Assembly: GCF_005860795.2 (NCBI RefSeq)
Contig: NZ_CP058350.1
Coordinates: 1,704,501-1,768,500 of the forward strand
Reading direction: 5' to 3'
Source: Peteryoungia desertarenae
Lineage (GTDB): Bacteria > Pseudomonadota > Alphaproteobacteria > Rhizobiales > Rhizobiaceae
Length of the DNA: 64,000 nt
Part shown: positions 4,100 to 49,931 of the stretch, one piece after another
Position numbering within the stretch: position 1 is the stretch's first letter
Layout: each line of letters begins with the position of its first letter
Notes under the pieces: model-generated
The model's input: the letters and a program-made list of their open reading frames with translations, nothing else
Told to the model about the DNA's origin: nothing
Databases searched by the model: none
Translations under genes and position numbers: made by a program

Positions 4100-4894
4100 T
4101 TACATCACGATGACCTTGGTTCCGACTTTGACGCGGTCGTAAAGATCAATGACATCTTCATTGCGCATGCGAATGCAACCGGATGAGACCGCGCTGCCGA
4201 TGCTCCAGGGCGCATTGGTTCCGTGGATACGGTAGAGGGTAGACCCGAGATAAAGTGCGCGAGCGCCAAGTGGATTTTCAGGCCCTCCGGCCATGTGAAC
4301 CGGTAGGAAGTGCCCCTTGGCTGCTTCGCGCTTGATCATGGAGGCCGGTGGTCTCCAGTCGGGCCATTCCCGCTTGGCCGTGACCTTGTGGGTTCCAGCC
4401 CATTCAAAGCCGGGTTTGCCAACGCCAACGCCATAGCGCCGAGCCTGGCCATTGCCCATCACCAGATAGAGAAAGCGGCTGTTCGTATCGATGACGATCG
4501 TGCCGGGTTTTTGTGTCGTCTCGTAAGCGACCACCTGAGGCAGGAAGATCGGATCGATCTGAGGTTTTGTCGGTCGAGCCGGTCGAGCTGCGGCTGGCTG
4601 GAACAGTCCCGGCTGGCGAACAACCTGCCGCTGTTGTGTGACGGTCGAGCGCGGAGCCTGCCTCTGCTGGACCTGCCGCTGCTGAATGCGCCGGTCGAAC
4701 AAGCCCTGACGCGCAGGCTGGGTCGCATGAACGCGCGCCCGCTGCGGCGTCCCGCCGAGCTGCATGACCCAGGGGGCGGAAAGGTCGGGGCTTATCATCA
4801 CCGGCGGGCGGGACTGATAGCGTTCCGAGGCAAGGCCAGGTGAGGCAAGGGGGAAGCTGGCAGTGATGGCCAGGATCAGAAATCGTTTGAACAT
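4100..4894 (-). CDS. L,D-transpeptidase (YkuD domain) with Gln/Arg-rich linker
   Basis: Second YkuD enzyme of the tandem pair, 264 aa. Start chosen at MFKRFLILAITASF, which gives a proper signal peptide; a GTG 14 codons upstream is less likely. Between signal peptide and catalytic domain lies a low-complexity segment of about 50 residues dominated by Gln, Arg, Ala and Pro (RRIQQRQVQQRQAP, TQQRQVVRQPG). The catalytic domain has YRIHGTNAPWSIG and SSGCIRMRNEDV, Cys near residue 240. Core sequence closely parallels the downstream paralogue (WPDWRPPAxMxxREAAKGH in both), so the pair probably arose by duplication, with the linker acquired or lost afterwards. Confidence 0.92.
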   Translation of the reverse strand: MFKRFLILAITASFPLASPGLASERYQSRPPVMISPDLSAPWVMQLGGTPQRARVHATQPARQGLFDRRIQQRQVQQRQAPRSTVTQQRQVVRQPGLFQPAAARPARPTKPQIDPIFLPQVVAYETTQKPGTIVIDTNSRFLYLVMGNGQARRYGVGVGKPGFEWAGTHKVTAKREWPDWRPPASMIKREAAKGHFLPVHMAGGPENPLGARALYLGSTLYRIHGTNAPWSIGSAVSSGCIRMRNEDVIDLYDRVKVGTKVIVM

Positions 4895-47289: not shown

Positions 47290-47662
47290 GGTGTGTCTCC
47301 CTGCGATTAAATTTGGGCCAGTCTCGATGTTTTTCTGTTTTTTGGCAGGGGTTTACCGTAAAATAAAGTGGGGTTATGGACGTTGAGGCCACTTAAAGTC
47401 TATGGTCCGCAGGTTCGTGGCGCTGGGGGGCGCTCAGGAACCTTGCTCGAAGGGGCAGATTTCGGGGATCAGAACAAGCCTGGCGCAATGATTGGCGCTG
47501 ATCTGGACCTTGGTCGACGTCCACAAGAGTTTCGTTTTTAGTATCGCGCAGATTAACACTGGACCCTTGCTGTCCCGAGCCAGCTATGCGGCTGTAGGAA
47601 GTTTTGGTTCTTAGAATGGGAAAGCCCCCTTGCAGGACGGACGCTCCAACAATGATCACGTC
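47290..47662. other. Intergenic region between SMP-30 and luxR genes
   Basis: 373 nt with no gene. It must hold both divergent promoters. An imperfect inverted repeat CTTGG...CACAAG around 47509-47528 could be an operator, but it is too weak to call a lux box. GC content dips at 47330-47400. Confidence 0.4.
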
Positions 47663-48421
47663 ATGGCGAATGTAGAACCTTCAGCTGCAGCGAGAGAGGC
47701 ACTGGGTGTCGAAGCTGTAACGGCCCTGGTCACCGAGATTGAGACCTTCAAGACGCAGTTCGATGTTTTTCGCTTCATGAAGCGGCTTGTGGAACGCTAT
47801 TTCTCGCGGACGTTCATGGTGGTGAACATGCCTTCTGTAACGTCGCGCGAATTGTCGCCGAATTCGATCATAACCAATTGGCCAGCTGATCTTTTGACAG
47901 AATATGACGGTGCCGCCATGCTGACGCGCAGCACCATTTTGGAGCGCTTGCGTCGGTCCTCGACGCCGCTTCAATATGACATGGACGATGCTGCGGCCAA
48001 GGAGCCCTCGGACAATACCTCTTCAGTTAAGGCGCTTTTCCACCGCTTCAACATGAACCGGGGCGCGTATTTCCCTGTACACGATGCGGGTGGTACGCGC
48101 GGTGCAGTGTCATTACATGGCAACCGAAGTGCCTTCTCGGCTGCTGAGATGATCGAGCTTTCCTACATCTCCATCCATGTCTACAACCGGCTTGCCCAGA
48201 TCCGCGACATGGATGTGCGCACTTCGGATGTGCTGACAGAGCGGGAAATCGATTGCCTGAACTGGACATCTGCCGGCAAGACGAGCGTTGAGATTGCCGA
48301 GATACTTGGCCTGTCGGAGCATACGATCAACCACTATCTCAACCGCGCCACCAAGAAACTCGATGCTGTGAATCGTACTCAGGCGGTTGCCAAGGCAATC
48401 CGCAGTGGATTGATTAAATAA
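47663..48421 (+). CDS. LuxR-type transcriptional regulator (autoinducer-domain-like N-terminus)
   Basis: 252 residues. The N-terminal half looks like the autoinducer-binding domain (FKTQFDVFRFMKRLVERYF, SRELSPNSIITNWPADLLTEYD), and the C-terminal HTH is LTEREIDCLNWTSAGKTSVEIAEILGLSEHTINHYLNRATKKL, a standard LuxR HTH. No luxI homologue is in the window, so this would be a LuxR solo or a regulator responding to another ligand. The start (ATG 47663) has no good ribosome binding site; a TTG at 47630 with GGGAAAG upstream is an alternative. Followed by its own small terminator. Confidence 0.88.
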   Translation: MANVEPSAAAREALGVEAVTALVTEIETFKTQFDVFRFMKRLVERYFSRTFMVVNMPSVTSRELSPNSIITNWPADLLTEYDGAAMLTRSTILERLRRSSTPLQYDMDDAAAKEPSDNTSSVKALFHRFNMNRGAYFPVHDAGGTRGAVSLHGNRSAFSAAEMIELSYISIHVYNRLAQIRDMDVRTSDVLTEREIDCLNWTSAGKTSVEIAEILGLSEHTINHYLNRATKKLDAVNRTQAVAKAIRSGLIK

Positions 48422-48431
48422 GTATTTTGGA

Positions 48432-48453
48432 CCGGTCGGCCTGACGGTTTTTT
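48432..48453 (+). terminator. Terminator of the luxR-type gene
   Basis: CCG(G)TC-GGCCT-GACGG, a 5-bp stem with one bulged G, followed by six T residues, 10 nt after the stop codon. Confidence 0.6.
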
Positions 48454-48550
48454 GTGCAGTGCAAGCAGGCATGCCGTCACTTTCACCAGTGCAGGGTGCC
48501 GCTTCCAATCAAAGAGGCCATTTCCGACGTCTGCATGAGCGTTTTGCAAC

Positions 48551-48566
48551 TGGCACGCTTTCTGCA
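48551..48566 (+). promoter_or_regulatory. Sigma-54 (RpoN) -24/-12 promoter
   Basis: TGGCACG-N4-CTGCA: GG at 48552-48553 and GC at 48564-48565 with exactly 10 nt between them, matching TGGCACG-N4-TTGCW at 11 of 12 defined positions. It points to a start at about 48577. An inverted repeat CACC-N7-GGTG at 48484-48498, about 65 nt upstream, might be the enhancer-protein site but does not match the NtrC spacing well. Confidence 0.7.
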
Positions 48567-48576
48567 TCTCTATCGT

Positions 48577-48667
48577 CAGTCCAGAGGGGACGTTGCATGG
48601 CGCCCAGCCAAGGGTGCCGCAAGAAAGCCGCCGGCAGGAGAAAACTCCGCAGGCGGCTTTTTCTTTT
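48577..48667 (+). ncRNA. Candidate sigma-54-dependent small RNA, about 90 nt
   Basis: Between the -12 box and a T-rich tail the sequence folds into three hairpins: GTCC-AGAGG-GGAC (48579-48591 region), TTGC-AT-GGCGCCC / GGGTGCC-GCAA (48593-48622, with a wobble and an AT bulge), and the terminator AAAGCCGCC ... GGCGGCTTT with inner GGAG-AAAA-CTCC (48624-48660). No open frame with a ribosome binding site fits. The luxR gene has its own terminator upstream and mrp begins about 110 nt later, so the transcript would be independent. Alternatively it is an attenuator in a long mrp leader. Confidence 0.55.
48624..48667 (+). terminator. Strong nested terminator between luxR-type gene and mrp
   Basis: AAAGCCGCC-ggca-GGAG-AAAA-CTCC-gca-GGCGGCTTT, a 9-bp outer stem with a 4-bp inner stem, followed by TTCTTTT. 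The T tract is on the plus strand only. Confidence 0.8.
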
Positions 48668-48776
48668 GCACCATGGAGAGAGCCGCAAGGGGCAGCCAAT
48701 TCCAGTTTGGCGGTTGGCGAATGCGCAAGCCTTCATTATCTAGTCCGGGACAGACATTCCAATTGATGAGGATCAC

Positions 48777-49931
48777 ATGAGCGACGTCACCCGTGAGCAG
48801 GTTCTGGAAGCACTATCCGGCGTGCGCGGACCCGATCTGGAGCGCAGCATCGTCGAACTCAAGATGGTGTCGGATATCTTCATCTCCGATGGGAAAGTCT
48901 ATTTTTCCATCAGCGTCCCGGCGGAACGTGCAAACGAGCTCGAGCCCATGCGTCAGGCCGCCGAAAGCACGGTTAAAGCCATCCCCGGGGTAAAGGGTGC
49001 GCTGGTCAGCATGACCGCTGAACGAAAGCAGGGCACTGGTGCCCCACCGCCGCGTCCGCAACCTGCACCGCAGGGACACAGCCACGGTCACTCTCATGGT
49101 GCCGGCCAACAGCCGGCGCCGCGAGGAAAGGCTGGCATACCGGGCATTGCCTCGATTGTTGCCGTGGCTTCGGGCAAGGGTGGGGTTGGAAAATCCACGA
49201 CGGCGGTCAACCTGGCGCTTGGCCTCCAGGCCAACGGATTGCGGGTCGGCATTCTGGATGCAGACGTCTATGGCCCTTCCATGCCCAAGCTCCTTGGTCT
49301 GACGGGGCGCCCCCAGCAGATTGACGGTCGCATCATAGTGCCGATGGAAAACTATGGACTGAAAGTCATGTCCATGGGCTTCCTGGTGGATGAAGGGACA
49401 GCGATGATCTGGCGTGGGCCGATGGTGCAGTCGGCGCTGATGCAGATGTTGCGCGAAGTTGCCTGGGGCGAACTCGATATTCTGATCGTCGATATGCCGC
49501 CGGGCACCGGTGACGCTCAGCTTACCATGGCGCAGCAGGTCCCCCTATCAGGTGCCGTCATTGTCTCCACGCCGCAGGATCTTGCCCTCATCGATGCGCG
49601 CAAGGGCTTGAACATGTTCAACAAGGTTGAAGTGCCGGTCCTCGGGATCGTCGAGAATATGAGCTATTTCATCGCCCCGGATACCGGCAATCGCTACGAC
49701 ATCTTTGGCCATGGCGGTGCGCGGGCGGAAGCCGAGAAAATTGGGGTTCCTTTCCTTGGCGAGGTCCCGCTGACGATCGCCATCCGCGAGAATTCGGATG
49801 CCGGAACGCCTGTTGTGGTCTCGGATCCCCAAGGCCCGCAGGCAGAGATCTATCGCGGGATTGCGAAGAAGGTCTGGGATCAGGTCGGCTTGCGATCGGG
49901 TCGTAAAGCTCCAGCGATCGTCTTTGAGTAA
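48777..49931 (+). CDS. mrp: Iron-sulfur cluster carrier Mrp/ApbC family P-loop ATPase
   Basis: 384 residues. N-terminal DUF59/MIP18-like domain (1-80: EQVLEALSGVRGPDLERSIVELKMV), a linker rich in His, Gly and Pro (GHSHGHSHGAGQ, about 100-115), then the ParA-like ATPase domain: VASGKGGVGKSTTAVNLALG (deviant Walker A), DILIVDMPPGTGDAQLT, and GIVENMSYFIAPDTGNRYDIF. At the last site E. coli Mrp and ApbC have a CxxC that binds the cluster; here the two Cys are replaced (APDT), so cluster handling must differ. ATG 48777. Confidence 0.93.
   Translation: MSDVTREQVLEALSGVRGPDLERSIVELKMVSDIFISDGKVYFSISVPAERANELEPMRQAAESTVKAIPGVKGALVSMTAERKQGTGAPPPRPQPAPQGHSHGHSHGAGQQPAPRGKAGIPGIASIVAVASGKGGVGKSTTAVNLALGLQANGLRVGILDADVYGPSMPKLLGLTGRPQQIDGRIIVPMENYGLKVMSMGFLVDEGTAMIWRGPMVQSALMQMLREVAWGELDILIVDMPPGTGDAQLTMAQQVPLSGAVIVSTPQDLALIDARKGLNMFNKVEVPVLGIVENMSYFIAPDTGNRYDIFGHGGARAEAEKIGVPFLGEVPLTIAIRENSDAGTPVVVSDPQGPQAEIYRGIAKKVWDQVGLRSGRKAPAIVFE

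Follow-up and report, generated by a model that had tools for sequence, protein, structure and literature searches.

A predicted NtrC/sigma54-type small RNA gene of Rhizobiaceae related to the nas/nrt operon leader

The small RNAs GlmY, GlmZ, NrsZ and CrcZ depend on sigma54, and the RNA described here resembles them in having a -24/-12 promoter. EutX and Rli55 titrate EutV through an ANTAR site; our RNA is likewise a stand-alone relative of an ANTAR-controlled leader, but EutX and Rli55 keep that site and our RNA lacks it. The S. meliloti RNAs rnTrpL and RcsR1 are products of transcription attenuation that act, or may act, in trans, a likeness that ours would share; rnTrpL, however, is still the trp leader, and the RNA here is a separate gene.

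According to the passages on NasT in PMC3795266, the Paracoccus protein is an ANTAR antiterminator that binds the nasA leader, and the section on ANTAR targets in PMC3369931 describes two hairpins whose hexaloops have A at position 1 and G at position 4. The nas/nrt operon leader, an antitermination target of NasT that is itself driven by NtrC and sigma54, appears to be a relative of our RNA. The two share a sigma54 promoter with NtrC-type sites, a 5' hairpin, hairpin 2, a terminator, matches to the same RNA model and, in part of both, the motif CCCGGATGNACGG. Unlike the leader, the stand-alone RNA has no nas genes downstream and no A1/G4 hexaloops, so no antitermination is expected of it and its termination should be unconditional.

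The RNA family is probably that of S. meliloti SmelC165, which has been catalogued with a predicted RpoN motif. Table 1 of PMC7143759 places SmelC165 on the S. meliloti 1021 chromosome at 910182-910297, + strand, 116 nt, with RpoN as the only promoter motif listed, and the SmelC165 entry of Reinkensmeier 2011 (PMC3927594) gives it as present in Sinorhizobium and Rhizobium, absent from A. tumefaciens/A. radiobacter, and in complete microsynteny. Like the SmelC165 of these passages, our RNA is a Rhizobiaceae sRNA with an RpoN-type motif, and the 17 Sinorhizobium-type loci collected here predict a length of 118-122 nt against 116 nt. The luxR-mrp neighborhood and the box are conserved in our Rhizobium and Sinorhizobium loci, which we liken to SmelC165 by description only. 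Unlike SmelC165 as reported there, copies occur here in A. tumefaciens records (L047, L066), without luxR or mrp alongside. The initial annotation took the RNA to be new or poorly known; "new" probably has to be given up, and the SmelC165 passages themselves give no NtrC site, no relation to the nas leader and no function.

The window, by which we mean the whole 64-kb stretch of DNA analyzed, appears from sequence comparison to hold a real and conserved sRNA gene of the NtrC/sigma54 type. We consider it likely that this is an independently transcribed, NtrC/sigma54-driven sRNA related to the nas/nrt leader, that its termination is unconditional, and that its working part is probably the conserved 5' hairpin GUCCAGAGGGGAC. 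When nitrogen is limiting, NtrC in its phosphorylated form would bind near 48442-48458 and activate sigma54-polymerase at 48551-48566. The RNA would then start near 48577 and stop at a terminator near 48667, ahead of mrp's own promoter, and we infer a trans action of hairpin 1 on either an mRNA or a protein. The features are as follows.

47630..48421, + strand: LuxR-type regulator gene (autoinducer-binding domain and GerE, by Pfam), the upstream neighbor
48442..48458, + strand: putative degenerate NtrC-type enhancer site TGACGGTTTTTTGTGCA (position weight matrix from other clades, score 10.4, p=0.017)
48455-48471, + strand: weaker NtrC-type candidate TGCAGTGCAAGCAGGCA, overlapping the TGACGGTTTTTTGTGCA site
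48551..48566, + strand: sigma54 -24/-12 promoter TGGCACGCTTTCTGCA (TGGCACG-N4-CTGCA), from pattern and conservation
48577..48667, + strand: small RNA of about 91 nt, from fold, covariation and conservation; 5' end predicted from promoter geometry
48579..48591, + strand: hairpin 1, GUCC-AGAGG-GGAC, 13 nt, nearly invariant, from fold and conservation
48599..48618, + strand: hairpin 2, loop AGCCAA at 48606-48611, no G at loop position 4; helix 2 covaries
48624..48667, + strand: intrinsic terminator, stem 48624-48632 / 48652-48660 and T-rich tail, from fold and helix 3 covariation
48714..48742, + strand: mrp's own sigma70-like promoter, TTGGCG-N17-TATCTA, from the motif class in relatives and alignment
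48777..49931, + strand: mrp (NUBPL-type Fe-S P-loop NTPase, by Pfam), the downstream neighbor

The predicted start near 48577 lies 12 nt past the C of the -12 element, and the terminator ends in TTTTTCTTTT at 48667. By Pfam, the context in the window is luxR and mrp, with no nitrate or nitrite assimilation genes 3' of the RNA.

We searched for relatives by DNA, by pattern and by structure. With 48500-48776 as the query, a DNA search found matches in 26 of 60 genomes. These are this genome and 25 of the 35 further members of its genus; the 24 genomes from other families of the order gave none. Twenty-four of the 25 same-genus matches span the box and at least the RNA start (L024 and L025 only the first part); the match in G007 is limited to the mrp promoter region, and one of the 24, in G035, turned out to be a nas leader. 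Twenty-three of the 24 start at query position 47-52 and one at 40, the T of the box being position 52, and an alignment of 24 upstream regions shows the box and the 13-mer as conspicuous blocks. Scanning public genome contigs with TGGCA-N14..36-GTCCAGAGGGGAC gave at least 119 stretches. Among the matches listed, 100 of 119 have GC at the right spacing, a feature outside the pattern, and all 100 are Rhizobiales records by title except one MAG titled Arenimonas; the other 19 of the 119 listed lack the GC spacing and are titled outside Rhizobiales or unplaced (one an unplaced Alphaproteobacterium). The exception, L041 (JAIBEK010000009.1, Arenimonas sp. MAG by title), bears a Rhizobiaceae locus and is probably mislabelled. 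For box spacing, 20 of 145 loci were dropped (L026, which has the mrp promoter only, and 19 pattern matches), and L027 was dropped as a second match in the record of L012.

A covariance model built without the promoter found the RNA in 183 of 394 genomes of the family and 54 of 109 genera (E <= 0.01), including 32 of 33 genomes of the Sinorhizobium-like genus g70. For inspection we used 72 sources, comprising the best 30 loci, 40 stretches with about one match per further genus, and two older loci. These gave 83 matches, of which 71 were used; L026 gave none, and 12 weaker matches (E 6e-6 to 0.0099) on the opposite strand at the same places were left out. The combined set of 227 loci is not dereplicated and contains some places twice (L193/L290, L023/L300, L221/L301); near-identical loci were removed before the upstream dyad scan (153 loci) and the hexaloop counts. 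The 227 divide into 148 loci followed by mrp, 44 nas leaders, and 35 loci with neither mrp nor nas genes in the stretch covered, which for some of the 35 (L094, L096) extends less than 500 nt downstream. The 148 are 138 plus 10 relabelled from nas, which have a NasS/NasT-like match upstream and mrp downstream. A NasS- or NasT-like match lies within 1.5 kb upstream of an mrp-adjoining RNA in L015, L016, L018, L019, L035, L040, L087, L109, L127 and L222.

The initial annotation described a -24/-12 element with exactly 10 nt between GG and GC, and this is what 48551-48566 contains. The pattern TGGCACGNNNNYTGCW matches the window once (shuffle mean 0.08, with a match in 7 of 100 shuffles), and genome-wide a box of this type occurs at 9 sites against 5 for the reversed control. 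It is therefore common enough that a box by itself is weak proof, and the argument depends on its conservation. The window box departs once from the consensus TGGCACG-N4-TTGCW, with C for the first T of TTGC, and we class it as a sigma54 element. It is kept in relatives, as the initial annotation had proposed to check: a box (TGG[CT]A-N8-GC) lies upstream in 70 of the 71 matches of the promoter-free RNA model, the sole miss being L205, a figure that partly depends on the seed because some loci are of the same species as seeds (L157 and L054 with the same RNA), the model itself having no promoter column. The distance from box to hairpin 1 is 28-31 nt in 68 of 70, with 35 in L222 and 23 in L191. 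In all 227 loci, duplicates included, GC is preceded by T and followed by A or T; no pattern forces the T, and the A/T is forced in only 17 of the 227. The genome encodes both RpoN and NtrC. These comparative tests support the original proposal of a sigma54-type, independent RNA gene with its own promoter and terminator.

Next to the box, the upstream regions of the family carry an NtrC-type signal. In a scan for gapped pairs of 3-mers over 220 nt upstream of the 153 dereplicated loci, TGC-N11-GCA ranked first among palindromic pairs (65 against 19.9); many non-palindromic pairs outscored the palindromes because luxR coding sequence lay within the scanned regions. Within 140 nt upstream, 58 of 153 loci have TGC-N11-GCA, where shuffles give 4.6 (at most 9) and the downstream control 9 of 153. 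Spacings 10 and 12 give 12 and 15 of 153; spacings 6, 14, 15 and 16 are also raised, to a lesser degree (25, 24, 24 and 32 of 153). With an A/T-rich center the count is 31 against 0.9, and 1 to 6 for spacings 9, 10, 12 and 13. Shuffles preserved dinucleotides for the 3-mer pair scan and were mononucleotide for the site, matrix, hexaloop, mrp-promoter and apex-motif counts. Two scoring boxes are present in 106 of 153 loci and lie 28-32 bp apart in 38 of them (shuffled: 0 of 3). The NtrC-related passages of PMC10746234 report that NtrC bound a TGC-N11-GCA motif with an A/T-rich center in EMSA at the S. meliloti nfeR1 promoter.

The window's own site, at 48442-48458, is not a strict TGC-N11-GCA. 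With a matrix made without the window's genus it scores 10.4 (p=0.017 against shuffles), a score equaled or beaten by 1.8% of 400 random window stretches, and the same matrix gives p<0.05 in 14 of 25 same-genus loci, the window being one of the 25. NtrC would bind here. The gene glnK is an NtrC target, and the matrix finds sites upstream of 7 of 14 P-II (glnK-type) genes that have a sigma54 box; it misses the other 7, including that of this genome (L246, p=0.29). The 14 scored genes have the box near -75; L241, whose box is at -206, and P-II loci lacking a box were left out. The initial annotation had suggested a response to nitrogen or carbon source as a possibility; the RNA is probably nitrogen responsive.

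An overlapping stretch, 48432-48453, had been read as a terminator of the luxR-type gene, a reading that we find weak. Its fold is unremarkable (z -1.26), and relatives keep a T-run followed by GTGC near there with, by eye, no obvious hairpin ahead of the T-run. A terminator scan of the window gave nothing at 48432-48453, which is no evidence because the scan missed the clear terminator of this RNA too. From the comparison, the T-run seems better read as part of the window's NtrC-type site.

A sigma54-dependent RNA could also answer to an enhancer-binding protein other than NtrC, such as NtrX, DctD or an orphan. The genome encodes several NtrC-like proteins (six matches above 300 bits, one of them over the NtrC cut-off), and the window's own NtrC-type site is weak. 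However, the motif found upstream across the family is the NtrC motif, and among the nas/nrt leaders fetched by context, 13 of 17 have strict TGC-N11-GCA sites. We therefore regard a different activator as unlikely, and activation by NtrC as the better reading.

The initial annotation's RNA of about 90 nt with three hairpins and a terminator is borne out by the fold of 48575-48670, which has an energy of -49.5 kcal/mol (z -4.37), equaled by none of 200 shuffles. In alignment A1, made of 38 diverse sequences, 90.5% of cells pair and 16 of 22 pairs are changed on both sides (82 cells); since the structure was named by hand on A1 itself, these pairing counts lean towards it. Controls with the structure slid along A1 pair at 39-53%. 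The covariation score is 0.329 against 0.167 +- 0.010, and none of 500 shuffles reaches it. Hairpin 2 was missed by RNAalifold when run on the first MAFFT alignment. As to the covariation that the initial annotation proposed to look for in the three hairpins, it is seen in A1 for hairpins 2 and 3, with changes on both sides in 11 of 12 pairs of helix 3, and hairpin 1 is constant there by construction, because all 38 loci were taken through the exact 13-mer.

The near-invariance of hairpin 1 is better judged elsewhere. The 24 same-genus loci from the DNA search (L002-L025), which were not selected for it, all carry the exact 13-mer GTCCAGAGGGGAC. The exact hairpin is present in 147 of 148 mrp-flanked, 34 of 35 other stand-alone and 11 of 44 nas-leader loci, counts to be read knowing that most loci were found with a pattern or model demanding or favoring the 13-mer. 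One variant, AUCC-AGAGG-GGAU in L196, is compensatory and leaves the loop unchanged. A 10-nt core of the hairpin, CCAGAGGGGA, occurs at 7 places in the genome including the RNA itself, against 5 for the reversed control, and none of the 6 other places, on either strand of the genome, resembles a gene-start site by eye. Pairing of the AGAGGGGA loop with the CCUCCUCCC loops of ar14/ar8 RNAs, as in an anti-Shine-Dalgarno sponge, gives about 4 contiguous pairs by hand, and we set this candidate aside. A small protein is not a better reading: an ORF of at least 10 aa lies wholly within the RNA in 17 of 71 loci, with no conserved gene, and an ATG or GTG at Shine-Dalgarno spacing behind AGAGGGG is found in 9 of 71.

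Could the 13-mer instead be a DNA operator over the start site, bound by a repressor, so that the RNA is no more than a by-product or serves as an early terminator? Roughly +3 to +15 forms an inverted repeat, GTCC-N5-GGAC, and its sequence hardly varies. Against this, the compensatory variant in L196 keeps the same loop, other nas leaders retain a 5' hairpin of different sequence, and hairpins 2 and 3 covary, for which an operator gives no explanation. We hold the operator to be a rather improbable alternative to hairpin 1 as a functional part of an RNA.

The relation to the nas/nrt leader came from the gene context of model matches. In three Mesorhizobium-like loci (L193, L207, L211; the label is a guess from gene content), the RNA follows NasT- and NasS-like genes, and in L193 it precedes an NrtA-like gene. 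In genus g70, six of ten weaker second matches were read, and all six (L279-L284) have a sigma54 box and are flanked by a NasS-like and an NrtA-like gene. By their context, loci placed between NasS- and NrtA-like genes are taken as nas/nrt leaders, matched by the same RNA model. The nas label rests on tblastn with one NasT/NasS/NrtA set from L193, named by the Pfam domains of two NMT1_2 genes, on gene order, and on ANTAR matches at the same places in G000, G031 and G035; NCBIfam gave no equivalog above cut-off for the L193 set.

The loops separate the classes. Of 32 dereplicated nas leaders, 31 have a hairpin with an A1/G4 hexaloop (stem >=5; 0.8 in shuffles) and 28 have two (0.1), the two being hairpins 1 and 2 in 4 of these 28 (L189, L202, L207, L215). 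Among mrp-flanked copies, 3 of 71 have one (shuffles 1.8) and none of 71 has two; among the other stand-alone copies, none of 25 has either. In the window RNA, no hairpin with a stem of at least 3 has an A1/G4 hexaloop. The RNA does not fit a NasT target leader, having neither these hexaloops nor nitrate/nitrite assimilation genes downstream. Hairpin 2 is the counterpart of the NasT-type hexaloop hairpin of nas leaders. With duplicates counted, 12 of the 44 nas leaders and 56 of the 148 mrp-flanked copies carry the terminator-apex motif CCCGGATGNACGG, as does 1 of the 35 other copies, against 0.0 in shuffles; its being common to nas leaders and mrp-flanked copies supports common descent. The motif is absent from the window RNA, and the nas leader of the same genome, L299, is not matched by the RNA model, which has one match in G000; the link to the nas leader therefore runs through relatives. 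An RNA tree (108 RNAs, 149 columns) does not resolve the deep forks, so that one or several origins, and either direction, are compatible with it.

The genome's own nas/nrt operon leader is L299 (G000:C2:594000-606000, box at 4771, - strand), with a sigma54 box, a strict TGC-N11-GCA site and the hexaloop hairpin CGGGUC[AACGAC]GACCCG, the hexaloop read by eye. Of the same-genus nas leaders read (L299, L302-L305), most are strongly unlike their counterparts in other genera. Mesorhizobium-like nas leaders (L193, L203, L206, L207 and others) have, in place of GUCCAGAGGGGAC, a 5' hairpin of unrelated sequence, and L189, L202, L207 and L215 have an extra A1/G4 hexaloop at the 5' hairpin position.

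Homology to NasT-target leaders raises the idea that the RNA is a decoy for NasT, as EutX and Rli55 are for EutV, and ANTAR proteins are encoded in 42 of the 60 genomes searched, this one included. The recognition loops are missing, however: dual A1/G4 hairpins, present in 28 of 32 nas leaders, are found in none of the 71 mrp-flanked and none of the 25 other stand-alone copies. We reject a NasT sponge at the level of motifs, and give it little probability. Least probable is a leader or attenuator of mrp that shares a transcript with it from the sigma54 promoter, akin to the attenuator in a long mrp leader that the initial annotation named as its alternative: mrp is on the same strand, begins about 110 nt after the RNA tail and lies downstream in 148 of 227 loci, but a separate promoter motif (TTGRCR-N16-19-TATYK) stands between terminator and mrp in 48 of 71 dereplicated mrp-flanked loci (shuffles 0.1), 35 of 227 loci have neither mrp nor nas genes in the stretch covered (less than 500 nt downstream for some), and an Agrobacterium copy (L033) sits between TerC-family and MarR-family genes, so that the RNA is not always 5' of mrp, nor is its box the sole promoter motif ahead of mrp. 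A generic promoter scan of the window does not list the mrp promoter at 48714-48742.

Returning to the stand-alone sRNA, hairpin 1 seems to follow a one-copy rule. In 38 genomes with a known nas leader, a set chosen for that leader and not at random, an exact hairpin 1 behind a box is found a single time in 19 genomes and is missing from the other 19. In 6 of the 38 (G031, G035, G349, G070, G414, G241) it is in the nas leader, and in 13, this genome included, it is on a stand-alone gene and the nas leader lacks it. The nas leaders L198 and L204 have one-base variants of hairpin 1, and their genomes lack an exact copy; so does G113, where the model matches a second time (G113:C5). As a tentative proposal, to which we give somewhat less than even weight, GUCCAGAGGGGAC would be a trans-acting module kept at no more than one copy per genome. 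In some species a prematurely ended nas leader would supply it, serving as attenuator and sRNA; elsewhere a duplicated copy of the leader would have lost its NasT loops and become a dedicated NtrC-driven sRNA gene, and the nas leader would have dropped the hairpin. A riboregulator would thus have been born from an attenuator by division of labor, with the direction from leader to sRNA.

Nowhere in the 64-kb window does an Rfam family attain its gathering score, and the GlmY/GlmZ models have no match in the window at gathering score or in 48400-48800 at E up to 5. The best subthreshold match, ctRNA_p42d (RF00489; 28.9 bits against 50), covers 48622-48669, the terminator only, and was rejected; the part of PMC2873474 that concerns this model lists it also for S. 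meliloti incA RNAs. The anti-Shine-Dalgarno sRNAs of Alphaproteobacteria (ar14, ar8) carry unpaired CCUCCUCCC-type motifs, according to the relevant passages of PMC10746234. Such motifs are absent from 48577-48667 on inspection and no Rfam model matches at gathering score, so that membership of this group was also rejected. Titles and abstract openings in the largely open-access literature yielded nothing tying the RNA to NtrC or to the nas leader; within the literature searched, the nas-leader relation and the hand-over of hairpin 1 appear to be new.

For a large uncharacterized RNA family of Rhizobiaceae, these results point to nitrogen stress, acting through NtrC and sigma54, as the likely signal, to a NasT-controlled nitrate leader as the likely origin, and to hairpin 1 as a candidate working part. 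If the one-copy rule holds, the family would offer a rare comparative record of an mRNA attenuator becoming an independent small-RNA gene. It would also add a further NtrC-linked RNA layer, in bacteria relevant to nitrogen fixation, beside NfeR1 and MmgR, both described as NtrC controlled in the passages on them in PMC10746234 and PMC7143759. The copy in L033 (Agrobacterium sp. AGB01) has a TerC-family gene of the DUF475 type and a MarR-type gene as neighbors, and the ORFs around the RNA copy in L099 are similar in size to those of L033.
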